A stretch of 33,303 nucleotides of DNA, from assembly GCA_015486105.1 (NCBI GenBank), contig WFSI01000044.1, positions 1 to 33,303 of the forward strand, given 5' to 3'. A model generated the notes under the pieces. That model ran no database searches, was not told the DNA's origin, and worked only from the letters and a program-made list of their open reading frames with translations. This DNA is from Aquificota bacterium. GTDB taxonomy: Bacteria; Thermosulfidibacterota; Thermosulfidibacteria; Thermosulfidibacterales; B14-G1. Position 1 is the stretch's first letter; the number at the start of each line of letters is the position of its first letter. Shown piece after piece: positions 9,632 through 24,148 of the stretch. The translations under genes and the position numbers were made by a program.

Positions 9632-10822
9632 CTATCCCCCAAAGATGCCCACATCCCTGCCTGCTCCTTCAAAAGCCTTCAAGGCAAGATCTAAATCCCC
9701 CCGTGTATGGGTTGCCATAAGGGTCACTCGGAGACGACTGGTACCAGGAGGCACCGTGGGAGGACGGATGCCCGCCACAAAGACCCCTTTCTCCAGTAGC
9801 CTCTGACTCATCTCCATGGTCTTATCTTCAGGACCAATGATTACGGGGACCACCGCCGTATGCTGGTTAGCCACATCAAAACCCAAAGACCTCAAACCCT
9901 CCACAAAATAGGCCACATTATCGTGGAGCCGACTGCGCCTTTCAGGCTCCTCCTGGACTATCCTTATAGCCTCCAACGCCACAGCCATATCCGCTGGAGG
10001 AAGGGCTGTGGTGAATATAAAGCTTCTGGCCCTGTTAATGAGATAGTCCTTAAGGATTTCGCTCCCCGCCACATAGGCCCCAAAGCCCCCCAAGGCTTTA
10101 CCCAGAGTACCCATCTGGATGGCCACATCCTGGGTAAGGCCAAAGTGCTCCACCGTTCCCGCTCCCCTCTCGCCCAGCACACCCGTGGCATGGGCCTCGT
10201 CCACCATAAGAAACGCCCCATAGTCCTCGGCTAAACCCGCTATTTCTGGAAGAGGGGCTATATCCCCGTCCATGCTGAAGACCCCATCCACTACAATGAG
10301 ACGGCGACGACCTCCCTCCCTTTTTAAAAGACTCTCCAAGACACCCATATCCTTATGGGGATAAACGGCCACTTTGGCCCGGGAGAGGCGACAGCCGTCT
10401 ACAATGGAGGCATGATTCAGTTCATCGGAAAAGACCACGTCCTCAGGGCCCACCAAAGAAGAAATGACACCCAGATTGGCCATGTACCCGCAATTGAAGA
10501 TCAAAGCAGCCTCCGTGCCCTTGAATCGGGCAAGGGCCTCCTCCAATTCACGGTGAAGACGCATAGTTCCCGACACTAGACGAGAGGCCACAGCACTGGT
10601 GCCGTATAGGTCTATGGCTCTTTTGGCCGCATCCATGAGCCGGGGATGACCAGCAAGCCCTAGATAGTTATTGGAACACATAAGGACCACCTCCCGATCA
10701 TCCAGAACCACTCGGGGGGACTGAACCGTCCAAATGGTCCTCAGAAAGCGGTATCTACCAGCCCTCCTTATCTCCTCCAGCTCATGAGACAAAAGTAGAC
10801 CCAGATATTCCCTCAATCCCAC
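9632..10822 (-). CDS. bioF: BioF-type alpha-oxoamine synthase (8-amino-7-oxononanoate synthase-like)
   Basis: This 396-residue PLP enzyme belongs to the alpha-oxoamine synthase family, which condenses an amino acid with an acyl-CoA and releases CO2; BioF uses L-alanine and pimeloyl-CoA/ACP in biotin synthesis. Visible motifs are SNNYLGLAGHP, ASRLVSGT..H.ELE, DELNHASIVDGCRLS, VDEAHATGVLG (Asp208 of the cofactor site) and GTLGKALGG, with Lys242 as the PLP Schiff base. The SRLVSGT and NHASIVDG blocks favour BioF over 2-amino-3-ketobutyrate CoA ligase. No other biotin gene is nearby. The start overlaps the end of the acyl-CoA ligase gene by ten bases, suggesting translational coupling and perhaps a shared pathway. 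The true acyl substrate is uncertain. Confidence 0.85.
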   Translation of the reverse strand: MGLREYLGLLLSHELEEIRRAGRYRFLRTIWTVQSPRVVLDDREVVLMCSNNYLGLAGHPRLMDAAKRAIDLYGTSAVASRLVSGTMRLHRELEEALARFKGTEAALIFNCGYMANLGVISSLVGPEDVVFSDELNHASIVDGCRLSRAKVAVYPHKDMGVLESLLKREGGRRRLIVVDGVFSMDGDIAPLPEIAGLAEDYGAFLMVDEAHATGVLGERGAGTVEHFGLTQDVAIQMGTLGKALGGFGAYVAGSEILKDYLINRARSFIFTTALPPADMAVALEAIRIVQEEPERRSRLHDNVAYFVEGLRSLGFDVANQHTAVVPVIIGPEDKTMEMSQRLLEKGVFVAGIRPPTVPPGTSRLRVTLMATHTRGDLDLALKAFEGAGRDVGIFGG

Positions 10823-12012
10823 TTCCGGCGGTCCTCCAAGGATTTAGAACCCTTCAACTCCCCTGAAGCCACAGTCTCCACGGCATCCACCTTCAGACGA
10901 AATAGCCCTTCGGCCCGGGTTTTCAAGGCCTTGAGATCATTAGGAGAAGCCTTTCCCTCCACCCGAATGACCAGGGTGTCCCTCACCCCTTCCCGATCCA
11001 CCACTACCTGGAGCCCCCTTACCCAGGGAAACTCTCCTGCCAAGGCCTTCACCTGGTGGCCGTGGAGGAAGAGGCCCCTCACCTTCACGGAGTCGCCCAC
11101 TCTGCCCATGAACCCCGCCAAGCGTGGGGAGGCCCACCTGCCACAAGAACAAGGCTCTTCCAGGAACCTTGATAGATCCCCCGTACCAAAACGAATGAGG
11201 GGGTAGACCTTGTTCAAAAGCGTTACCACTACCTCTCCCACATCCCCAATGGTCAAGGGCTCTCCTGTAACAGGATCACATACCTGGACCACCAAGCCCT
11301 GAGCCAAATGGAGGCCCTCCTTCCTGACACACTCGAAGCCTATGGTACCCACATCGGCAGTACCGTAACACTGGTAGGTATCAATACCCCACTCTTCCTG
11401 GAACATTCCCCTGAGAGAAGAGGGAAGAGGCTCTGCTGAAACCAAGGCCCTTTGCAAAGGAAATTCCACCGGAGCCACACCTACTTCCCGGGCCTTTTCT
11501 AAAACGGAAGCCAGGAAACTGGGGGTCCCTACAAACCCTGTAGCTTCTAACTTGAGGATAATCTACACCTGGAGCTCCCTGTTACCCACTCCCGTGGGCA
11601 CCACCACTGCCCCCAAAGCCCTTAATCCCTCATCATACATGAAACCTGCCGGGGTAAGGTGATAGGAAAATGCATTTACCACCAGGTCTCCGGAGCCAAA
11701 ACCTGCTGCCTTTAAGGCCTGAGCCCTCCTCCAGTAGTCCTCTGTAGCCCCCTGGGGATCGAAGATAGGCCCTGGAGAGACAAAAATCCGGGCCAGGCAA
11801 GAAACATCCGTAGTCAAAAGCCCCCCAAAGGAAGGAGCTTGTTCCTGGAGAGAAACCAGCTTCTCCTTCTTCAACACAGGGATACGGGCTAAGTCATCCT
11901 GGCCTTTAATGTCTCCTGTTACCAGCCCGGCTTCCTCCATACGTTCCTTGAAAGCCGGGCTCCTTTCCCAAGCCAGCTTTACTATCTCTCTAATCTTAGC
12001 ATCCCCTTCCAT
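10813..12012 (-). pseudogene. PaaK-family acyl-CoA ligase interrupted by an in-frame TAG
   Basis: Two pieces in the same frame make one phenylacetate-CoA ligase-type protein of about 399 codons. Residues 1-149 (11563-12012) contain the AMP-binding N-terminal part, with FSYHLTPAGFMYDEGLRALG and PTGVGNRELQV. A TAG codon at 11563-11565 stops translation. The frame then resumes without a shift as IILKLEATGFVGTPSF, CYGTADVGTIGFEC, YPLIRFGTGDLSRF and a C-terminal domain with GRVGDSVKVRG. Homologues I recall carry Gln, Arg or Lys at the TAG position, so a single change such as CAG to TAG explains it. TAG is an ordinary stop in neighbouring genes, so general readthrough is unlikely. A restart at the GTG at 11476-11478 could give only the C-terminal 221 residues. 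The ATG follows AGGAGGGAG; the 3' end overlaps bioF. Confidence 0.85.
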
Positions 12013-12030: not shown

Positions 12031-12651
12031 TCAGGCAAAAAGGCCGCCTCGGTCCTGCTCATGACCAGTTGCTGGGGACGGTAAATGGAAAGCGAAGTAG
12101 TCCTTGAGAAACCGCCTCTCCCACTTAGTGAAGCAAGAAGGATCTACATAATTATGTAAGGGTTTCCTCCCCTTCAGAAGAGAAAAGTGATTCCTCATCC
12201 TTAGGGTGAGGAGAAACTGGTAGGCAAAGATAAACTCATCGGCTTCGTCCTTGGAAAAAACATCCACCTCCGCCATCGCCTCTATACGATCAGAGGTATT
12301 GGTCTCCCTAATCCCTTCCACAAGGGTCAAGGCCCTTACACCTTCCAGTATGGGGAGGCATCCTCTAAGTTGGATATCCAAAGCGTTTTTGTGTTCCCCC
12401 GACTTCTCCACAATAAAATGGCCAAAGAGACCTATGGATGGTTTAATCTCCGCCGAAGATTTGCCCATCCGAGCCACAAAGCCTGAATAATTCTTAACAT
12501 GGTATAGGTCTCTACCAAATCCCAGCCCCAGGTTCCTATTCGGATGTGCGCTACACGAAATATGTATGTGATCTCTATCTATCCCTGTAGCCTCAAACTT
12601 CATCGCATACCTCTCTTCTATCCCTCTCACCCTCTCCTTTATTATTTCCAC
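12031..12651 (-). CDS. Chimeric ORF: IS200-type transposase N-terminus fused to DUF294 C-terminal domain (probably non-functional)
   Basis: The 206-residue frame is a join of two unrelated proteins. Residues 1-39 match Y1/IS200-type transposases, including ERYAMKFEATGIDRDHIHIS with the metal-binding HUH-type H-x-H (His28, His30). From about residue 45 it is the C-terminal substrate-binding domain of DUF294/GlnD-like nucleotidyltransferases: ALDIQLRGCLPILEGVRALTL, IRETNTSDRIEAM, AYQFLLTLRMRNHF and NYVDPSCFTKWERRFLKDYF. The CBS and nucleotidyltransferase parts of the DUF294 protein and the catalytic-tyrosine half of the transposase are both missing. A deletion joining a transposon to the host gene explains this. 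The start is an assumed GTG with no clear ribosome-binding site. It ends 18 bases before the broken acyl-CoA ligase gene. DUF294 proteins often accompany acetate symporters, which fits the remnants on the other side. Confidence 0.75.
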   Translation of the reverse strand: MEIIKERVRGIEERYAMKFEATGIDRDHIHISCSAHPNRNLGLGFGRDLYHVKNYSGFVARMGKSSAEIKPSIGLFGHFIVEKSGEHKNALDIQLRGCLPILEGVRALTLVEGIRETNTSDRIEAMAEVDVFSKDEADEFIFAYQFLLTLRMRNHFSLLKGRKPLHNYVDPSCFTKWERRFLKDYFAFHLPSPATGHEQDRGGLFA

Positions 12652-14331: not shown

Positions 14332-14370
14332 GAAGTTTTTGCTGGCCGCCTAAGGGCCAGCAAAAACTTC
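14332..14370. terminator. Strong bidirectional terminator between channel gene and galT
   Basis: GAAGTTTTTGCTGGCC (14332-14347) pairs perfectly over 16 bp with GGCCAGCAAAAACTTC (14355-14370), with a seven-base loop. It lies between two convergent genes and can serve both. Confidence 0.8.
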
Positions 14371-14436: not shown

Positions 14437-15471
14437 TCACAGCTCTATCTGGATATCCCTCAACTCCTCAGCAGCCACCTCAGGGGGCGTAGGGTTGATA
14501 TAGAAACCTGTGCCCCACTCAAAACCCGCAATCTTAGTGAGACGAGGCACCAGCTCCAAATGCCAGTGATAATCGTTCTCAATAGTCCCCCAGTAATGGG
14601 GCTTCCCTGGCCTGGGAGTGAGAGAGGGGCAGGTATGAAGAACAAAGTTATACGGGGGATCATTAAGGGTAAGCTTTATTCTGAGGAGCATGTCCTTCAT
14701 GGCCTGGGCCAGGACCAAAAGATCATCTTCAGACAAACAGGCAAAATCATGGTTGTGCCTCATGGGAAAAAGCCATGTCTCAAAGGGGAAAGAAGAGGCA
14801 AAGGGTGTCCATAACATATAATTGCCATCAGCCTTCACCACCCTCTTGCCTATGGCCAACTCTTGCTTAATGATATCGCAGAAGATACACCGCTCCTTCT
14901 TGAGATAGTGCTCCTGGGCCGCCCTCAGCTCCTGAATCACCACAGAAGGGGTGACAGGGGTGGCGATGATCTGGCTATGGGAATGGGAAATAGACGCTCC
15001 CGCCGCTGCCCGATGATTCTTGAAAACCAAGATATAACGAAAGCGCTTATCCCGCCTCAAATCCCTGATCCTTTCCCTGTAAGCCAACAAAACATCCCTG
15101 ATCTCCTCTACGGATAGATCACCAAGGGAACGGTCATGATCAGGGTTCTCAATGACCACCTCATGGGCCCCTATGCCTGTCATCCTATCAAAGAGACCTA
15201 CCCCCTCCCTCTGCAATTCCCCCTCCACCCTAAGGGCAGGAAATTTGTTGGGGGTCACCCTCACCCTCCAACCTGAAGTATCAGGGGCAGAACCTGGGGG
15301 TCTGATGGCAAAGACTTCAGGGGGGGTCCTATCCTCGCTGCCATAACAGAAAGGACAAACATGGAGGTGCTTCTCTTCTTCAGGGATCTGATAATCCTTA
15401 GGCCTCCTAGCTCGTTCCACAGCAATAATGACAGACCTCTGTCTAACAGGATCAATCCTCAGCTCCGGCAT
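14437..15471 (-). CDS. galT: Galactose-1-phosphate uridylyltransferase
   Basis: The 344-residue protein belongs to the HIT superfamily GalT branch, which swaps UMP between UDP-glucose and galactose-1-phosphate through a uridylyl-histidine. It shows the zinc-type pair CPFC (about residue 40), VTPNKFPAL, EVVIENPDHDRSL and FKNHRAAAGASISHSHSQI. In the last, the second His of H-S-H is expected to be the nucleophile (HPH in E. coli). A second half has CIFCDI, FPFETWLFPMRHNHDF and NDYHWHLELVPRL. Some proteins of this type act as ADP-glucose or other hexose-1-phosphate nucleotidyl transferases, so the sugar is not certain. It starts 11 bases after the GH57 gene stop and is the last gene of a sugar/glucan operon. 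Confidence 0.9.
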   Translation of the reverse strand: MPELRIDPVRQRSVIIAVERARRPKDYQIPEEEKHLHVCPFCYGSEDRTPPEVFAIRPPGSAPDTSGWRVRVTPNKFPALRVEGELQREGVGLFDRMTGIGAHEVVIENPDHDRSLGDLSVEEIRDVLLAYRERIRDLRRDKRFRYILVFKNHRAAAGASISHSHSQIIATPVTPSVVIQELRAAQEHYLKKERCIFCDIIKQELAIGKRVVKADGNYMLWTPFASSFPFETWLFPMRHNHDFACLSEDDLLVLAQAMKDMLLRIKLTLNDPPYNFVLHTCPSLTPRPGKPHYWGTIENDYHWHLELVPRLTKIAGFEWGTGFYINPTPPEVAAEELRDIQIEL

Positions 15472-15482
15472 ATCTTCACCTC

Positions 15483-17459
15483 CTATTCCTGGAAGAGACG
15501 AAAGGCCCTCTCTCCTTGGGCCCCCATGATAAACATAAAACCCGTACCCTGGTATATACTGTCAAAGCCCCCCTCAGACTGGGAAAGGGTAAAGAAAGGC
15601 ACCTGCCAAAGTCGAACCCTTCCCTCTACCTCCAACATAACAGGGGAGGAAAGGGAAGGATCCACACCCCTCACCACTTCCACATCCCCCCAATCCCTAA
15701 CCCTGGTGGCAGCTATGGATTCTCCCGAAACCTCTACTCGAGCCTCCTGGGCCCAGGGAAAATGAAGATTTATCTCTACCCCCAAGGGAAAACCACCAAC
15801 AAAAGACCATTGGTAAAGGACCTCCAGGCCTTTACCTAAAAGATGGTAACCCTTCTCCAACCACCCTTCCTCCCCTTCCCACCTCCAGGTAAAGGGCCCA
15901 TCCCCCACAAGGGAATAACCCTGAAGGGCCAAAAGGCGAAGGGCGTATCCGGGATCCCTCTCCCAATCTGCTATAGAACTCTGAGGCTCAAGGATACGAT
16001 CTAGAAAAGAATAGCGGGGCATGACATCGTATATCACCTCCCCAGAAGGAGGGCTTTTGGCCTGCTCATGAATGCTAAGGGTACCCCCTTCCCCTCCATG
16101 GGACTCCATGCCCCTATGATAATGCTCAAATCGCCGAGCCAATGTATCGGTAATGTTTACTCTACCTTCTCTAAAACTCAGCTCCACCAATGAGGCCCCA
16201 CGGAGAGGCTTAACCACTGCAAGACACTCTTTATTAGACATAACCACCTCTTCAAAACCGTCCGCATCCAGATCCATCACCCATGAGCCTTCAAGATTCA
16301 TCCCTGCCAGATCCTCTGCCTCCAGTAGGGAGCGATACACAGAGCGCCTAAGGTGGGGAAGATACACCCCACCAAAGATACCGTGCCAATAAGGATCATT
16401 ACACTGGGCCCTGTACAACGCCTTCTTCGCCTCTTCCCCTGCCTGGACCAGCCTTTTGCTAACCCAAACCATTCTCTTGTGCATGTGATTGGCTTCAGGG
16501 TACTTCACCAGAAAGTTCCTCCAAATGCCCCCCCTAACATAGGGCCGATACCTCTCCCACTCACCCCGGGCCTTCAAATCCTCCACCAGACCATGAAACT
16601 CTGAGGCCTGAAAAGGAGGTAGACTCCATTCCCCCATCTCGAAATAGGAGGCCGTGGGAAGATAAACCCTTCCCTTGGGAGGATGGGTTTCCATGAATCC
16701 AGAGAAGCTAAGGGTATTCAACCACGGAGCCCCCTCCAGAGCTTCCAAAAATCTCTCCAACCATCCCTTCCCATAAACCCAATCATGGGTACCCGGCCAG
16801 ACCCCAAACTTCTCTGCATCATCATAGAGAATAGCCCCAGGCCCAGGGCACTGGCCCAAATAGTCCATCACTTGCTCCACAGGCCTGAAAGGCACGATAT
16901 AACGAAGCCTCTCGCTGATGGGAAAGATAGCTAAAGTCTCCCCTCCCTCTTCGGTGAGATAATAGCCCCCCAACTCCTCCTCCTTCATCCCCGCGCACAA
17001 GAAATGATAGTCGTCCACCACCACATATCTCATCTCAGCCTCTATGAGTTGGGGAAGGATCTGAGGTTCCCAGACCCTTTCCGTAAGCCAGAGACCTCTG
17101 GGAGTAACCCCCCACCGTTTTTTAACATATGCCCTGGCCATCTCTATCTGCCCCAACCTGTCATCAGGAGGGATAGCCGCCAGAACAGGTTCGTAGAAAC
17201 CACTGATCTGAATCTCCACCTGATCCCTATCCACCATTTCTCCTACCCAGTCCAGAAACCAGGGCCTTTCCCTCTCTATCCACTCCCATAGAGGCCCGGT
17301 GTAATGAAGAGAAAAAGAGAAATGGGGATGACCCCTCACCACCTCCATAAAAGGCCTGTAAGCCTTTTCAAAAGCCTCCTCCATCACCCAGGGAAAGTTG
17401 CCCTGAGGTTGGTGACCGTGGACCCCAAAGAGGAAAGAAACCTCAGTCTCCCTTGTCAC
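15483..17459 (-). CDS. Glycoside hydrolase family 57, 4-alpha-glucanotransferase/alpha-amylase type
   Basis: The 658-residue protein matches the length and layout of the Thermococcus litoralis 4-alpha-glucanotransferase: a (beta/alpha)7 barrel with HGHQPQGNF near the N-terminus, then a beta-rich C-terminal domain (about 400-658, DUF1925/1926 type). The nucleophile Glu127 is in GLWLTERVWEP, and the acid/base Asp lies in YDDAEKFGVWPG (about residue 214). It should rearrange alpha-1,4-glucans such as glycogen or maltodextrin in the cytoplasm; no signal peptide is visible. Its start overlaps the preceding fusion gene by 17 bases, and galT follows 11 bases later, so it is translationally coupled within an operon. 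Transferase versus hydrolase activity cannot be settled by sequence reading alone. Confidence 0.9.
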   Translation of the reverse strand: MTRETEVSFLFGVHGHQPQGNFPWVMEEAFEKAYRPFMEVVRGHPHFSFSLHYTGPLWEWIERERPWFLDWVGEMVDRDQVEIQISGFYEPVLAAIPPDDRLGQIEMARAYVKKRWGVTPRGLWLTERVWEPQILPQLIEAEMRYVVVDDYHFLCAGMKEEELGGYYLTEEGGETLAIFPISERLRYIVPFRPVEQVMDYLGQCPGPGAILYDDAEKFGVWPGTHDWVYGKGWLERFLEALEGAPWLNTLSFSGFMETHPPKGRVYLPTASYFEMGEWSLPPFQASEFHGLVEDLKARGEWERYRPYVRGGIWRNFLVKYPEANHMHKRMVWVSKRLVQAGEEAKKALYRAQCNDPYWHGIFGGVYLPHLRRSVYRSLLEAEDLAGMNLEGSWVMDLDADGFEEVVMSNKECLAVVKPLRGASLVELSFREGRVNITDTLARRFEHYHRGMESHGGEGGTLSIHEQAKSPPSGEVIYDVMPRYSFLDRILEPQSSIADWERDPGYALRLLALQGYSLVGDGPFTWRWEGEEGWLEKGYHLLGKGLEVLYQWSFVGGFPLGVEINLHFPWAQEARVEVSGESIAATRVRDWGDVEVVRGVDPSLSSPVMLEVEGRVRLWQVPFFTLSQSEGGFDSIYQGTGFMFIMGAQGERAFRLFQE

Positions 17460-19965
17460 CCGAGCCCCCTTTCTTCCATCCCTCCAGCAGAAACTGGTAA
17501 CTGTCCAGCAGCTCTATGGCCTCTGCCTCCCCCTGAGCCTCGGCGTACAGGTGGAAGAGGGATCTCACCTGATCAGGGATCAGCAGAATCCAAGCTCCAG
17601 AAGGGAAAAAGATCTTGATACCATCTACGAAAGAAGCCTCTTTATCGGCAGCATCTTGGCTAAGGCGCCTCATGATAGTTCCCTTCAACTCCCAGGGGCA
17701 GGGCACCTCCCTATGAAGAAAGGTGCTGAAGGGTAGCATTCCCCTGGCCTGGCCCAAAGAGAGTTTCCCTCTGGCCATCATCTCCAAAGTCTTGGCTAAG
17801 GCGAAGAGGGCATCAAAGACATAGTGAAAGGCAGGAAAAACGAATCCCCCTCCAAGGGAAGCCCCCATGACCACCTTTCCTTTCCGACAGGCCTCAGTCA
17901 AGCTTCTGGGACCATGGGGAACCCGGTAAAGGGAGAATCCCTTCCTCACGGCCGCCTCCTCTAAGACAGAAGGAGCAGCCACAGGAACCACCAAAGTACC
18001 AGGGGAATGTGTGGCCACCACCAGAGAAGACATGCCCATAAGGGCCTCCGTACCCTGGTAAACCCTCCCCACCTCGTCCACCAGAATGAGCTCTTCCCCT
18101 GAAGGAGATATCCTGAACCCCCCTTGAGCCCCCAAGGCCACCACAATCTTAGATAGGCCCTCTAAAGATTTCGCCACGCTCTTAACTTCGTTGATAGCCC
18201 GTTCTTCCAAATAGGCATTGATTCCCACTACATCGCATCCCAGCTCCCCCAGCATCTCTGGTAATAGGGTACTAGCAGGACCATGGGCGAAATCTACCAC
18301 TATACGAAAACGGGCCTCCTTTATAGCTCCCCTATCCAATGATTTTAAAAAACCTTCCCGGTAAAAATCTACCACCTTGGGGATCTCAGATATTCTCCCT
18401 GGCTCAGAGGGATGGACCCTGCGGAAGTCTTCCCTGGCAAAGATGCGCTCTATACCCTTCTCCTGAGACGTAGATATGCTCAACCCTTCCGTGTCATAGA
18501 AACAGATCTCCGTCACAGAAGGAGTCTCCCGAGACTGGCGAAAAACTACACCTCCCACCTCACCAAAGGACTGGAGTTTGTACCTCAAAACAGGCTCTGG
18601 GACAAGCCTTAGATCCTTCACATGAATACCCGCCGAAAGGACACCACCTATGAAAGCCCTTTTGAGCATCCGAGAAGCCCGGAGAGAATCCCTGCCCGTC
18701 ATAATAGAGGCATTTTTAGGAAGAGTAGAACCATAAGCCACCCCCAATTTGGCCACAAACTCCGGGGTGAGATCCATGTTGGTGATACCAGTCACCATGG
18801 CACTTTCAAAGAGCCTCTTCTTCCACTTCTCTCCCCAAATGAGATTGTCCGTGAGGATAGCCCCTTCCTCCAAGACCTTGTTGGGCCAGATCATTACCCC
18901 TTCCCTCACCAGGGCCCCTTTCCCCACATCACAACCTTCGGCTACCACGGACCCCTTCTCTACTCGGGCCGCTGACCCCACCTTCACGTTGTTGCAAACC
19001 ACGGACCCTCTTACCTGGGCCTCATACCCCACCAATACATTGTCCCAGACCACGCCATCTATCACCCGGGCACGGGAAGCCAAGGAACAATTGTTGCCCA
19101 GCACGCAGTTCTTTAAAAAGGCCCCATCCCCAATACGGGTATTGTTGCCCAAAACAACAGTCCCCTCAAAACGCACCCCTTCCCCTATCTGGACCTCATA
19201 CCCCACCCTGACATCCCGGCCCACCAGATCCAGCTTGCTCCCAGGAATCTCTACCCTCACCATCCCGTCAAAAATGTCATAATGGGCTTGGCGATAGGAT
19301 TCGGGGTCTCCAATGTCCCGCCAGTAGTTCCTGCCGTGATAGCCAAAAAGGGGCTTACCCTTACCTAAGAGCTTAGGGAAAAGGTCCTTACTAAAGTCAA
19401 AGTCCCCATCCTCGGGAATCCCTTCCAGGACCTGGGGCTCCAACATATAGATCCCTGTATTTATAGTATCACTGAAGACCTCCCCCCAGCCTGGCTTCTC
19501 TAAGAACTTCACTATGCGGCCCTTCTTGTCTGTAATCACCACTCCAAACTGGAGAGGATTCACAACGGAAACCAAGCCCAAGGTTACCCAAGCCTCCTTC
19601 TCCCTGTGAAAATCCGCCAAGGCTGCAAGATCCATATCAGTAAGGAGATCCCCCGATATCACCAAAAAAGGGGCATCCAGATAGCTCTGGGCAGCCTTTA
19701 CCGCTCCTGCCGTCCCTAAATCCTTGGTAGGAGTAATATAGGCAATCCTTACCCCCCAATCCGAACCATCTCCAAAGTAGTCTTTGATCACCTGGGGCTG
19801 AAAGTAAAGGAGAACCACCAAATTCGTAAAACCGTGTCCTCTCAGGAGGCGAAGGATATGCTCCATGATAGGCAGATTCACCAAAGGGAGCATAGGCTTG
19901 GGTAAAGAAGAGGTGAGAGGACGGATTCGAGTACCAAATCCCCCCGCCATGATAACGGCTTTCAT
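17443..19965 (-). CDS. Nucleotidyltransferase-phosphomannomutase fusion with degenerate mutase domain
   Basis: This 840-residue protein has three parts. Residues 1-235 are a sugar-1-phosphate nucleotidyltransferase (MAGGFGTRIRPLT, PKPMLPLVN, GDLLTD, INTGIYML). Residues 240-375 are a left-handed beta-helix of hexapeptide repeats (VGYEVQIGEGVRFEGTVVLG and similar). Residues 380-825 are a phosphohexomutase-like region. The family is annotated as mannose-1-phosphate guanylyltransferase/phosphomannomutase. In the mutase part the phosphoserine loop reads TGRDSLRASR (423-432) rather than TxSHNP. The metal loop usually written DPDGDR reads GFRISPSGEE (616-625), losing the aspartates. So the mutase half is probably inactive, sensory or altered. 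It begins one base after the receiver gene and overlaps GH57. Confidence 0.88.
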   Translation of the reverse strand: MKAVIMAGGFGTRIRPLTSSLPKPMLPLVNLPIMEHILRLLRGHGFTNLVVLLYFQPQVIKDYFGDGSDWGVRIAYITPTKDLGTAGAVKAAQSYLDAPFLVISGDLLTDMDLAALADFHREKEAWVTLGLVSVVNPLQFGVVITDKKGRIVKFLEKPGWGEVFSDTINTGIYMLEPQVLEGIPEDGDFDFSKDLFPKLLGKGKPLFGYHGRNYWRDIGDPESYRQAHYDIFDGMVRVEIPGSKLDLVGRDVRVGYEVQIGEGVRFEGTVVLGNNTRIGDGAFLKNCVLGNNCSLASRARVIDGVVWDNVLVGYEAQVRGSVVCNNVKVGSAARVEKGSVVAEGCDVGKGALVREGVMIWPNKVLEEGAILTDNLIWGEKWKKRLFESAMVTGITNMDLTPEFVAKLGVAYGSTLPKNASIMTGRDSLRASRMLKRAFIGGVLSAGIHVKDLRLVPEPVLRYKLQSFGEVGGVVFRQSRETPSVTEICFYDTEGLSISTSQEKGIERIFAREDFRRVHPSEPGRISEIPKVVDFYREGFLKSLDRGAIKEARFRIVVDFAHGPASTLLPEMLGELGCDVVGINAYLEERAINEVKSVAKSLEGLSKIVVALGAQGGFRISPSGEELILVDEVGRVYQGTEALMGMSSLVVATHSPGTLVVPVAAPSVLEEAAVRKGFSLYRVPHGPRSLTEACRKGKVVMGASLGGGFVFPAFHYVFDALFALAKTLEMMARGKLSLGQARGMLPFSTFLHREVPCPWELKGTIMRRLSQDAADKEASFVDGIKIFFPSGAWILLIPDQVRSLFHLYAEAQGEAEAIELLDSYQFLLEGWKKGGSGDKGD

Positions 19966-19966
19966 G

Positions 19967-20344
19967 CTACTCGCTCCCGTAGTACTTCTCCAAAAGCCTC
20001 TTTACCTCTTCCTTTAATTCAGTGAGATCCGCAGACTTAATGACATAGGCATCAGCCAACCAACTGGAAAAATCGTCCTGATAGGAAGAATAGGCAGAGC
20101 AGAGAATAACCGGCAGATTCTTCTTCTCCTTCACAATGTGCTGGAGGGCCTCCAAACCACTCATCTCCTTCATCCTAATATCCAGAATCACCAGATCCAC
20201 GGGCTCCTTTTCCAGGATCTCTAAAGCATCCTCCCCAGAAGAAGCCAAGAGCACCTGGTACCCCTCGTCGGTAAATTCCTGATCGTAAAGGAAGCGAATA
20301 CTCTCCTCATCGTCAACAACCAGCAACCGGCCCTTCTTATCCAT
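19967..20344 (-). CDS. Stand-alone response regulator receiver protein
   Basis: The chosen start gives a 125-residue CheY-like receiver with the full set of conserved residues: Asp11/Asp12 of the acidic pocket, phospho-acceptor Asp55 in LVILDIRM, Ser83 in VILCSAYSS, and Lys103 in YVIKSAD. It has no output domain, so it must act through protein contacts or as a phosphorelay intermediate. An upstream in-frame extension (to 20425) is rejected because ATG 20344 has TAGGGGGT as ribosome-binding site and matches the family start. The gene follows the small Cys protein by ten bases and the kinase by about 115, and precedes the nucleotidyltransferase fusion by one base. The histidine kinase is the obvious partner. 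Confidence 0.92.
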   Translation of the reverse strand: MDKKGRLLVVDDEESIRFLYDQEFTDEGYQVLLASSGEDALEILEKEPVDLVILDIRMKEMSGLEALQHIVKEKKNLPVILCSAYSSYQDDFSSWLADAYVIKSADLTELKEEVKRLLEKYYGSE

Positions 20345-20354
20345 GATATACCCC

Positions 20355-20561
20355 CTATTGGGTCTTTTTGAATGCCTTCCAGCAACCCTGTCTCCAAAGG
20401 CAGCCCTCTTCACCGCATGTCTCAACCCTGGAGGTACCGAAACAGGGAATATTGCCCTCCCTATCCTGGATCTCTCTGATGAGCTGGGTCTTCCTCTTTC
20501 TCCCAGGAACGATCCCCATCTCCCTGGCCATGGTTTTTACTTCCATTACTATCATTGTCAT
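20355..20561 (-). CDS. Small Cys-containing protein with SAP/Rho-N-like helical domain, overlapping the kinase gene
   Basis: A 68-residue protein starts at ATG 20561, six bases after AAGGAGG inside the 3' end of the histidine kinase gene (101-base overlap), and ends ten bases before the receiver start. Residues 6-36 (EVKTMAREMGIVPGRKRKTQ then LIREIQDREGN) resemble the helix-loop-helix fold of SAP/Rho N-terminal domains, which bind nucleic acid in other proteins. A Cys motif follows: Cys40, Cys49, Cys54 and Cys60 (CFGT-x6-C-x4-CLWR-x2-C), suited to an Fe-S cluster or zinc. I recall similar small proteins in Desulfobacterota with the same layout but no known function. Its place between kinase and receiver suggests a role in that pathway; this is inference. 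An alternative start is the fifth codon downstream, at 20546. Confidence 0.8.
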   Translation of the reverse strand: MTMIVMEVKTMAREMGIVPGRKRKTQLIREIQDREGNIPCFGTSRVETCGEEGCLWRQGCWKAFKKTQ

Positions 20562-22149
20562 TGTCCACCTCCTTTTCATCCCATTCCTTCAAAGGCAGCC
20601 ATACCTTCACAAGGGTGCCCTTTTGCAAAGGCTGAATTTCCAACCTGCCCCCATACTCAGCAATGATGTTTTTGCATATAGGCAAACCCATACCCGTCCC
20701 ACCCTTTGTGCTAAAGAAGGGCTGCGTCACCTTATCCAGTATCTCCTGGGAAATACCCTCACCCTGGTCTTCCACGGTGAGAAGGGCCTCTTCCTTTTCC
20801 TTCTGCAAAGAGACCTTTATCTCTCCACCATAAGGCATGGCCTCCATGGCATTTTTCAAAAAGTTCCATAAGAGGATACGAATGTGCTTAGGATCTACAA
20901 GTACCATGAGAGGTCCCTCATCTAAGAATAGGGAAAAAGTATGCTTCCCATTGCGGAGAATCTCTTCCACCTCCTCTAAGGCCTTTCTCACCACAGTACC
21001 CAAATCTAACAGGGTTCTTGAGGGACAAATGGAGTCAGCATAGGAGATGAGATCCCCCACTAAGTCCTCTAAACGGGAGGCCTCCTCCACTATAGCCTGA
21101 AGGATCCCTTCATCAGACTTCCCAGTCTTCAGCAGGTACTTGGCCAACCCCCCTATGGCCGTAAGGGGATTCCTTATCTCATGGGCCATCTTAGACGTGA
21201 TGGTACCTACCACCCTCATCTTCTCCAGCTTAGTAAGGGAGTCATACTGGCACTTCATCTCCTCGGAACAACGTTCCAACTCTCTCACCTTTGTCTCCAA
21301 TCGCCGATAGAGACCTGCCCTCTCCACAGCCAGGGCGGCCTGAGCTGCGAAAGTATCCATGGCCCTTACATCCACAGGGTGAAAGGGCTCCGCCGAGATC
21401 ACGTTGTCTACCAAAATACACCCCAAAAGGCGATCTCCACTCCAAAGGGGTAAAACCAAAAGGTCCTTCACCCTTAATAGATCCAAAAGGCTGGCCAGCT
21501 CGGGGCACGAACTCCTCTCCACCATAAAAGCCTTTCGTACATTCAAGAGCCTCACCAGAGGGTCCCTATCATCTAAGGGAAAGACCAGCTTCTCCAGCAA
21601 AAACCAAAGCCTCTCCCTATCCCGATAAAGGGTCCCCTTCCTTTTCAAGAGGTCATGCACAGAGCAGTTCTCCGAATTGATGCATCCCCAGATTTCCATA
21701 GCCTCTTGAGGGTCCTTAGGACCAATAGCACAGTAACCCTTGAGGAAACCCTCTTCCGCTAAGAGAATCCAGGCCCTGTTGTATCCCAACCCATCCCCAG
21801 CGGTGAGATAAGTAAGGATAGTGTGGATAATCTCATCCAGATTGGTGGAGTCCCTAATTAGGCCGGCCACTTCACTCAAGGCCTTGAGTCTATTTTTGCC
21901 ATGCTCCAGTCTATCCCTCAGGAACTGGACCCCGGTCTGATCATCCTCCAGCACCTGAGGCAACAGCTCCATAGCCATTCTATGAGGCGCCTCACAACTC
22001 ACCAGGTCCATCATAAGCTTGGGGCACTCCAAGCATTTGGCCTTCATTCTGGCCCTCTGATCGTGAAGGAGATGGGCCTCCCCCTCAGGATCTATATTGG
22101 GACACTCCCCCTCCTCCAAAGACGCCTTTAACCAGCACTTGTCCCCCAT
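20461..22149 (-). CDS. Soluble sensor histidine kinase with Cys-rich N-terminus and GAF domain
   Basis: The 562-residue kinase has no membrane segment. Residues 5-52 hold five cysteines (5, 16, 39, 42, 52), a possible metal or Fe-S site. A GAF-like sensor domain spans about 90-280. A short coiled coil leads to the HisKA domain with phospho-His323 in MAHEIRNPLTAIGG. The ATPase domain has the N box (NFLKNAMEAM, 429-438), G1 (DQGEGIS) and G2 (GGTGMGL, 483-489). The fold should end near residue 520. The last 42 residues are a hydrophilic Asp/Asn/Lys-rich tail encoded by DNA that also encodes the small Cys protein. The cytoplasmic location and Cys cluster suggest sensing of redox state, metal or gas; the ligand is unknown. 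The receiver downstream is the likely target. Confidence 0.92.
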   Translation of the reverse strand: MGDKCWLKASLEEGECPNIDPEGEAHLLHDQRARMKAKCLECPKLMMDLVSCEAPHRMAMELLPQVLEDDQTGVQFLRDRLEHGKNRLKALSEVAGLIRDSTNLDEIIHTILTYLTAGDGLGYNRAWILLAEEGFLKGYCAIGPKDPQEAMEIWGCINSENCSVHDLLKRKGTLYRDRERLWFLLEKLVFPLDDRDPLVRLLNVRKAFMVERSSCPELASLLDLLRVKDLLVLPLWSGDRLLGCILVDNVISAEPFHPVDVRAMDTFAAQAALAVERAGLYRRLETKVRELERCSEEMKCQYDSLTKLEKMRVVGTITSKMAHEIRNPLTAIGGLAKYLLKTGKSDEGILQAIVEEASRLEDLVGDLISYADSICPSRTLLDLGTVVRKALEEVEEILRNGKHTFSLFLDEGPLMVLVDPKHIRILLWNFLKNAMEAMPYGGEIKVSLQKEKEEALLTVEDQGEGISQEILDKVTQPFFSTKGGTGMGLPICKNIIAEYGGRLEIQPLQKGTLVKVWLPLKEWDEKEVDNDNDSNGSKNHGQGDGDRSWEKEEDPAHQRDPG

Positions 22150-22227
22150 CTATCTGCTCCCTCCAAGGGAATGATGGTCTCTGGCCAAAGGAAAGTCAAC
22201 TTAAAGATTCAACCCTATCCCCTTCAC

Positions 22228-23469
22228 TTAAAAAAGGGCCTTAAACACAACAAAAAGAAGCATGGCCAAGCCTGCAGTAAAGGGAATGGTAACTATCCAT
22301 GAGAGAAAGATATCTTTAAGAATCCTGAGATTCAAGGCCCCAATGCCCCTGGCCAACCCCACTCCCACTACAGACCCCACTAAGGTATGGGTGGTAGAGA
22401 TAGGCATACCCATCTTAGAACAAAACAAAACGGTGGTAGCACAACCGAACTCGGCACAGAACCCCCTGCTGGGAGTAATGTCCGTAATCTTCCTTCCCAC
22501 CGTCTCAATCACCCTATAACCCCATGTAGCCAATCCTACCACAATGCCCATGCCGCCAACGAAAAGGACCCACAGGGGCACAGTCACCCTACCCTGGATC
22601 GTAGAGGCCTTCATAGTGCTAAAAATAGCTGCCAAGGGCCCTGTAGCATTGGCCACATCATTGGCCCCGTGGGCAAAAGCCATAGAACACGCAGTCATCA
22701 CTTGGAGATATTTAAAGATCCCCTCCACCTCCTGAAGCTTATCCCGAATACGGGCAGCAGGCTGGATCCGGAAGTTTCCCATAGCAAAGGATGTAACCAC
22801 CAACCCTCCTATCCCCACAGCAAAGGCAATGATCAAAGCTTCCCAAAAAGGGAAGTGCAACTTTAAATTTTTCAATCCTTTGTACGTGAAGGAAAGGGTG
22901 AGCACGAAAAAGACCAATAACACTAAAAAAGGGGTATACTGCTTGGTAGCCCTTAAGGGATGAGGATGCCCTAAGATCCTCTTAGCCACATGGCGAAAAA
23001 GAATAAAAGAGATAATAGCCCCCATGACTGGCGATACAAACCAGCTGGCCACCACTTCCGCAAGTTTGTTCCACTCTACCGCAGAAAACCCACAGGAAAC
23101 CAAGCCAAAGCCCACCACGGCCCCCACTATGGAATGGGTAGTAGATACAGGGAGCCCCATATAGGTTGCCACCTGAAGCCAGATACCTGCAGAAATAAGA
23201 GCAGCCAACATACCGAGGACGAAAAGCCTCTCCTCCCCAATAAAAAACTGGGGATTCACTATTCCCTTGCTTATGGTCTGAGTCACATGAGACCCTACCA
23301 ACACCGCCCCCATAAACTCAAAAAGCCCTGCTACCAAGACCGCTTGTTTCAGAGTAAGTGCCCGGGAACCCACAGAGGTGCCCATGGCATTGGCCACATC
23401 GTTGGCCCCAATATTCCAGGCCATATAAAGGCCCCCAAGCAAGGCTATCCCCAGAATGATTACATTCAT
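22228..23469 (-). CDS. pit: Inorganic phosphate transporter, Pit family
   Basis: This low-affinity, ion-coupled phosphate permease in the inner membrane has the internal duplication typical of the family. The signature GANDVANA occurs twice (NIGANDVANAMGTSVGS near the N-terminus and AHGANDVANATGPLA in the second half). Two GLPVSTTHS/GMPISTTHT segments are also present. About ten to twelve hydrophobic helices are visible. ATG 23469 is preferred because GAGGTG lies six bases upstream; a GTG at 23478 would add three residues. The gene follows the DUF47 gene with almost no gap, the standard arrangement, in which the PhoU-like partner controls the permease. Confidence 0.95.
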   Translation of the reverse strand: MNVIILGIALLGGLYMAWNIGANDVANAMGTSVGSRALTLKQAVLVAGLFEFMGAVLVGSHVTQTISKGIVNPQFFIGEERLFVLGMLAALISAGIWLQVATYMGLPVSTTHSIVGAVVGFGLVSCGFSAVEWNKLAEVVASWFVSPVMGAIISFILFRHVAKRILGHPHPLRATKQYTPFLVLLVFFVLTLSFTYKGLKNLKLHFPFWEALIIAFAVGIGGLVVTSFAMGNFRIQPAARIRDKLQEVEGIFKYLQVMTACSMAFAHGANDVANATGPLAAIFSTMKASTIQGRVTVPLWVLFVGGMGIVVGLATWGYRVIETVGRKITDITPSRGFCAEFGCATTVLFCSKMGMPISTTHTLVGSVVGVGLARGIGALNLRILKDIFLSWIVTIPFTAGLAMLLFVVFKALF

Positions 23470-23479
23470 AGTGGTCACC

Positions 23480-24148
23480 TCACTTGGAGAGGAAGAGGCG
23501 AATCCTGTTGCACATCCTCTCAGCGTAGTTGGCTATATCTCCCGTCTTTGCCACGATCTTAAGCCATAGCCACAGCTCCGCAGGGGTATAAGCCTCTTCA
23601 TGGCTGAGAAGCCCCTTGGTCACCTTCCTTTGGGCCTCATCGGCATGGTGCTCCATGTCACAAACCTCATCTATCATAGAGAGTACTCTCTGGGCCTCAG
23701 GTCCTCCAAAGGAGGTTTCCACCAAGACATCCAGCTCATCTATCACCTTCGAGGCCATATCCACCACCTCAATTGCCCTCTCCACCAAATCCATAAGGCA
23801 CTCCCTAAGCTGAGGAGTAACCTTTAAATCCTTGAGGATCATGAGAACAGCCACATCCTCTGTGGCATCGGCAATGGCATCTTCATTTGCTAGGATCTCC
23901 AGTATATCTCCCCGGGCCACAGGCATAAGGATGCCCCTGGGCAGGGTAGACCTGATACGGTTCTTGATCTGATCCGCCTCATACTCCAAATGGGAGATCC
24001 TGTGCACCATCTCCTGCAAGCTTTCCCGATCCCCCCCTATGAGGACCTCATAAAGGGGCTTAGCCTGGTGAGCACACTCCTTTACCTTCTCCATCATTTC
24101 CTGCAAGGGTTGAAAAGGAGACTTGCGAAAAAGATCAAAGATCCTCAC
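23480..24148 (-). CDS. DUF47/PhoU-like accessory protein of the Pit transporter
   Basis: The 222-residue, all-helical soluble protein matches the DUF47 (PhoU-related) family encoded next to Pit permeases. Characteristic features are the N-terminal FDLFRKSPFQPL, the EADQIKNRIRSTLPRGILMPVAR segment shared with PhoU metal-binding regions, and LANEDAIADATEDVA. Family members are thought to modulate phosphate import or metal-phosphate homeostasis. Its stop codon lies inside the ribosome-binding site of pit, so the two are translationally coupled. Confidence 0.92.
   Translation of the reverse strand: MRIFDLFRKSPFQPLQEMMEKVKECAHQAKPLYEVLIGGDRESLQEMVHRISHLEYEADQIKNRIRSTLPRGILMPVARGDILEILANEDAIADATEDVAVLMILKDLKVTPQLRECLMDLVERAIEVVDMASKVIDELDVLVETSFGGPEAQRVLSMIDEVCDMEHHADEAQRKVTKGLLSHEEAYTPAELWLWLKIVAKTGDIANYAERMCNRIRLFLSK

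Follow-up and report, generated by a model that had tools for sequence, protein, structure and literature searches.

A sensor histidine kinase and a stand-alone receiver are encoded together with enzymes of NDP-glucose and alpha-glucan metabolism in a six-gene arrangement that, judging from gene order in other genomes, is not due to chance and is conserved across two phyla. We consider it probable, at roughly 60%, that these genes form a conserved signalling-metabolism module in which the kinase phosphorylates the receiver and the receiver acts at the protein level on the NDP-glucose and alpha-glucan enzymes. The original prediction had tied a cytoplasmic kinase and an output-less receiver to alpha-glucan enzymes at this one locus. 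The association is real, widely conserved and more general than first proposed, since it is found across phyla and with GlgC, GlgA, galT-like proteins and a nucleotidyltransferase fusion as partners. It is also apparently undescribed: as had been suggested, no system of such composition was found in the literature searched, nor any report tying a stand-alone receiver to glycogen enzymes, the coverage of that search being incomplete.

Layout of the locus and conservation of gene order

The window, a stretch of 33,303 nucleotides, is a whole contig of a 1.9-Mb metagenome-assembled genome. ORF and domain reading placed six genes on its minus strand exactly where they had been claimed to lie. They encode a sensor histidine kinase (HK), a small Cys protein (Cys), a stand-alone receiver (REC), a nucleotidyltransferase/mutase-like fusion (FUS), a GH57 enzyme and a galT-like enzyme, and are listed here with the signals predicted at the two ends.

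14332-14370, minus strand: likely operon-end terminator, a strong hairpin with a 16-pair stem predicted by consensus scan, just past galT
14437-15471, minus strand: galT-like NDP-sugar phosphorylase/uridylyltransferase, 344 aa, closest to ADP-glucose phosphorylase
15483-17459, minus strand: GH57 4-alpha-glucanotransferase, 658 aa, with three Pfam domains (catalytic, middle and C-terminal)
17443-19965, minus strand: FUS, 840 aa, with NTP_transferase, a left-handed beta-helix and a degenerate phosphoglucomutase/phosphomannomutase-like half (Pfam)
19967-20344, minus strand: REC, 125 aa, Pfam Response_reg only, true start ATG at 20344
20355-20561, minus strand: small Cys protein, 68 aa from its likely start, with a strong Shine-Dalgarno, SAP/Rho-N-like helices and C-x8-C-x4-C-x5-C; accessory
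20461-22149, minus strand: HK, 562 aa, Pfam GAF, HisKA and HATPase_c
22171-22199, minus strand: weak promoter-like site from the consensus scan (9/12 matches), in the 78-bp space upstream of HK

Promoter-like sites in the consensus scan of the window were no more numerous than in shuffled sequence. The tight packing claimed for the six genes agrees with the measured spacings, which are 11 bp between GH57 and galT, 1 bp between REC and FUS and 10 bp between Cys and REC, with an overlap of 17 bp between FUS and GH57. The one larger space, put at about 115 bases between kinase and receiver, measures 116 bp and is indeed occupied by the small Cys gene, which overlaps the 3' end of HK by about 100 bp because the HK of the window has a C-terminal extension.

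Order is maintained well beyond the window. Its phylum is represented by nine genomes in our collection, and six relatives could be read for gene order. HK-REC-FUS is kept in five of these six (G002, G003, G004, G006 and G007), followed by GH57 and galT as far as the contigs extend, while the sixth (G005) keeps REC-FUS-GH57-galT and carries its HK homologue on another contig. A lack of linkage of kinase and receiver to the sugar genes in close relatives had been set as grounds for refuting the original prediction, which has survived this test. In G008, no HK, FUS, GH57 or GlgA was detectable. In another phylum, represented by Geobacter and relatives, HK-REC-FUS is found again, with GH57, galT-like and GlgA genes next to it; the run that follows it in Geobacter consists of a second GH57 type, of a subtype different from that in the window, galT, GlgA and GH13. 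Tallied by hand in named genomes, 80 FUS loci included 55 with an adjoining receiver, mainly in Geobacter, Geomonas and other Desulfuromonadales, and 46 of those 55 also had a kinase; 23 loci had FUS without an adjoining receiver and two lay at contig ends.

The small Cys gene belongs to this picture only in part. Its ORF spans 20355-20579, and translation of the gene is probable, with 20561 as the likeliest start, since that start stands behind a strong Shine-Dalgarno (AAGGAGGTGGACA-ATG) and the gene is conserved at the same place in two relatives with 59-62% amino-acid identity. The AF2 model of the protein has a mean pLDDT of 73.5, and Foldseek gave weak matches, none at E <= 0.001, of which the sensible ones were to Rho N-terminal/SAP folds. 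The family is without a Pfam or NCBIfam match, and a phage search returned no match. The gene is thus real, as had been proposed, but it is not core: no homologue was matched in G002, G006 and G007 of the phylum, and the homologues in Desulfuromonadia, including Geobacter-type genomes, lie away from the cassette, for which reasons we rejected it as a core member. The family, which has the motif CF.T...C....CLW..DC, was found in 9 of the 19 other genomes searched, with one or two copies in each (Desulfuromonadia types; loci L132-L141).

Several neighbours of the locus can be recorded separately. A PHO4 phosphate permease and a PhoU-like DUF47 gene lie directly upstream of the kinase (22228-24148, minus strand), a position kept in the window's family only; these two and lolC, also upstream, were rejected as module members on account of that limited conservation. 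In an ORF at 12031-12651 (minus strand), a DUF294_C domain follows a start that weakly resembles an IS200/IS605 Y1 transposase; the ORF is possibly an insertion-element chimera. Two adjoining ORFs at 10813-12012 (minus strand) seem by eye to be parts of a single phenylacetate-CoA-ligase-like adenylation protein, perhaps frame-shifted, with a Kbl-like aminotransferase beside them at 9632-10822.

The kinase and the TrrA-type receivers

HK is a two-component histidine kinase by its HisKA domain with H-box and its HATPase_c domain, the HEIRNP box being invariant in the alignment, and it holds the same locus position in relatives. Its N-terminus carries a four-Cys motif, CW-x9-CP ... CxxCP. Because this motif (CW-C-CxxC) is present in all 44 FUS-linked kinases with a readable N-terminus, across two phyla, a redox or metal input to HK is plausible.

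REC belongs to the TrrA type: it is receiver only, without an output domain, and its closest relative among solved receivers is Thermotoga TrrA (3a0r_B and 3a10, E 1e-40). Other natural receivers match at E 5e-22 or worse, the best of them in the PDB being Spo0F. TrrA is known from the solved ThkA-TrrA complex (PMC4034769, PMC3433190). In that pair from Thermotoga maritima (TM1359-TM1360; PDB 3a0r, 3a10, 3a0u) a receiver-only regulator is matched with a kinase, as here, and TrrA and REC are alike in a short helix-4 region and the motif SSW..D.YxVKS. The kinases differ, ThkA being described as PAS-linked whereas HK is of a Cys4-GAF kind. In the literature searched, TrrA had neither an assigned function nor a tie to glucan. 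Within the phylum, REC identity is 70-87%. The phospho-acceptor residues D12, D55 and K103 are present in 100% of 139 family members, and REC should therefore be phosphorylatable; the hallmark residues S104 and W95 are present in 94% and 89%, respectively, and TrrA carries the same residues.

A profile search detected TrrA-type receivers in 171 of 218 genomes taken as Desulfobacterota from the sample's centre, a Citrifermentans (Geobacter-type) genome. Neighbourhoods were examined for 103 receivers, and for 79 of them the run of same-strand genes includes one of alpha-glucan or NDP-glucose metabolism, counts that come from related genomes and are not independent. This 77% linkage may exceed the family average, because the 103 came from the top of a larger score-ranked set and FUS-linked members had served to build the profile. 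The partners in those runs are galT (45), GlgA (22), GlgC (21), FUS (20) and GH57 (6), and the commonest layouts are REC-GlgC (18), galT-GlgA-HK-REC (16), HK-REC-FUS (9) and galT-HK-REC (9). For comparison, 400 kb of DNA drawn at random from these genomes contained 7 REC and 8 HK genes, no clear alpha-glucan gene and one weak generic nucleotidyltransferase match. Other candidate phyla, too, have a few genomes in which such a receiver adjoins galT, FUS or HK.

Twelve further receivers adjoin a GT2 NDP-sugar glycosyltransferase with weak likeness to mannosylglycerate/glucosylphosphoglycerate synthases. A minority of TrrA-type receivers lie with a pair of genes for a tRNA/rRNA methyltransferase-like protein and an HD-phosphohydrolase, or with ProC (L199, L201, L227, L233; L178, L193, L228).

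In many Desulfobacterota the receiver is directly upstream of glgC, with a spacing of mostly 0-14 bp. In six genomes there are two receiver paralogues, of which one adjoins GlgC and the other galT(-GlgA)-HK. On the tree of 139 receivers, partner type changes 17 times, as against 74.7 changes expected with shuffled labels; partners are stable inside clades, yet are swapped repeatedly and nearly always within one pathway. Given that partner enzymes vary by receiver clade, the receivers are unlikely to share a single fixed docking site. The matches included no fusion of a receiver to an enzyme.

The NDP-glucose and alpha-glucan enzymes

The predicted nucleotidyltransferase/mutase fusion is real as a fusion (PDB relatives 8x7s and 9du5/1wqa), and the nucleotidyltransferase motifs are intact in the alignment of 81 homologues, but the mutase half is catalytically degenerate. 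TASHNP, DGDxDR, the sugar loop and RxSGTEP are exact in 0 of the 81 homologues, and the phosphoserine, metal, sugar and phosphate loops are absent from the mutase half in 81/81. Assignment as an active phosphoglucomutase/phosphomannomutase is not upheld, and a bifunctional mutase was rejected on the loss of all four motifs. NDP-sugar pyrophosphorylase-phosphomannomutase fusion proteins, which occur in cyanobacteria too, have the same two-half architecture; FUS, with its nucleotidyltransferase half preserved, differs from them in that the mutase motifs are gone in all 81 homologues examined.

FUS scores 117 bits with the GlgC model TIGR02091, below the cut-off of 424.9, and no genome of the phylum reaches that cut-off. 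GlgA is nevertheless present in 8 of the 9 genomes of the phylum, and FUS is the best match to the glgC model in each cassette-bearing one. Since the phylum thus has GlgA, no GlgC above cut-off and FUS as its best GlgC-like protein, FUS probably stands in for GlgC in the window organism. The REC gene would then lie 1 bp upstream of the gene for the first committed enzyme of the pathway, just as receivers lie directly upstream of glgC in many Desulfobacterota.

The GH57 protein is a 4-alpha-glucanotransferase, with the catalytic motifs TERVWEP and YDD. It matches the Thermococcus litoralis enzyme 1k1w over its full length, all three domains included (E 2.5e-168), although the T. litoralis enzyme has no known receiver linkage.

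In contrast, the identity first given to galT was not borne out, and the protein is ADP-glucose-phosphorylase-like rather than a Leloir GalT. It falls below the Leloir GalT cut-offs (TIGR00209, 98.0 vs 102.1 bits; NF008724, 127.8 vs 448 bits). Its best PDB matches are 1z84/2h39, Arabidopsis At5g18200, at E 7.6e-67, with E. coli GalT at about 1e-20; At5g18200 is its closest solved relative over the full length, and the two have in common an HxHxQ site of the HIT type (HSHSQ in the window). At5g18200 phosphorolyses ADP-glucose, and the physiological role of this plant enzyme is not established (PMC11066809). A Caldisericota protein fuses glycogen synthase (GlgA) to a galT-like domain (L110, 3272-5740, minus strand; similar in L112), which lends independent support to a place for the galT-like protein in ADP-glucose metabolism.

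Proposed action of the receiver on glycogen enzymes, and alternatives

How might the module work? The soluble kinase would sense a cytoplasmic signal through its N-terminal four-Cys site and GAF domain and, as its family and the operon pairing suggest, would phosphorylate the TrrA-type receiver. Having neither a DNA-binding nor an enzymatic output, the receiver would most likely bind, directly or with one partner, the NDP-glucose enzymes, that is, FUS or GlgC, GlgA and the ADP-glucose-phosphorylase-like protein. Once bound, it would switch flux between synthesis and mobilisation of an alpha-glucan store. The genes most closely tied to the receiver are those for enzymes that form or consume NDP-glucose, and the receiver remains with the enzymes even where the kinase is absent, as in G005, at REC-GlgC loci and at L100-L103. 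Adjacency of genes need not mean contact between their products, however, and phosphotransfer, the target protein, the direction of control and the signal are inferences from the linkage, its breadth, the intact phospho-acceptor residues and the loss of the mutase motifs.

A stand-alone receiver may instead be an intermediate or phosphate sink, a relay role being frequent for such proteins and Spo0F ranking next after TrrA among the structures. The true output of the kinase would then lie elsewhere, in a DNA-binding regulator or relay protein that alters transcription of the glucan operon, and the cassette would be auto-regulatory. The window's genome does hold many other receivers. However, at many loci the receiver adjoins GlgC, FUS or galT in a run without kinase or regulator, in G005 the kinase is encoded elsewhere and the receiver is still with the enzymes, and the conserved gene set contains no HPt or DNA-binding gene. 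We therefore regard this explanation as unlikely, though it is the strongest competitor to direct action of the receiver on the enzymes.

Less likely still is that co-transcribed housekeeping genes have merely stayed together, with receiver and enzymes functionally unlinked. Such inertia would fit the PHO4, DUF47 and lolC neighbourhood, kept in the closest family only, and the members of the receiver family that adjoin unrelated genes. It does not easily account for the same receiver type beside at least four alpha-glucan partners, in varied orders and in more than one phylum, or for at least 17 partner changes that fall nearly always inside one pathway; the random DNA contained no such genes. 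Equally improbable is control of an exported or surface polysaccharide through GDP-mannose-type sugar nucleotides made by FUS, which does resemble mannose-1-phosphate guanylyltransferases and UGPases, since the partners are GH57 4-alpha-glucanotransferase, GlgA, GlgC, GH13 and the ADP-glucose-phosphorylase-like enzyme, and the runs contained no recognisable flippase or polymerase.

Direct action of the receiver can be put in a stronger form, which we advance tentatively and would rate somewhat below an even chance. TrrA-type receivers would make up a dedicated family of bacterial regulators: the stand-alone receiver, as Asp~P, would bind the NDP-glucose pyrophosphorylases FUS and GlgC along with related glucan enzymes and switch them allosterically, so that a kinase controls storage polysaccharide without transcription; a single kinase may feed two receiver paralogues located at different glycogen loci. 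A precedent is E. coli HPr, a small protein that controls glycogen phosphorylase by binding according to its phosphorylation state. HPr is part of the PTS and carries its phosphate on His, whereas REC would carry it on Asp and obtain it from a sensor kinase.

Stand-alone receivers in two-component signalling are of a known kind; what is new is the proposed class of target. The usual view is that glycogen synthesis in bacteria is governed by metabolites that act on GlgC, together with regulators at the level of transcription or mRNA. Since Geobacter carries the module, genetics is feasible. If our reading is true, the glycogen pathway would have a direct phosphorelay input in a receiver family that repeatedly adjoins GlgC, GlgA, FUS or the ADP-glucose-phosphorylase-like enzyme, and the structurally known ThkA-TrrA pair would gain its first functional hypothesis.
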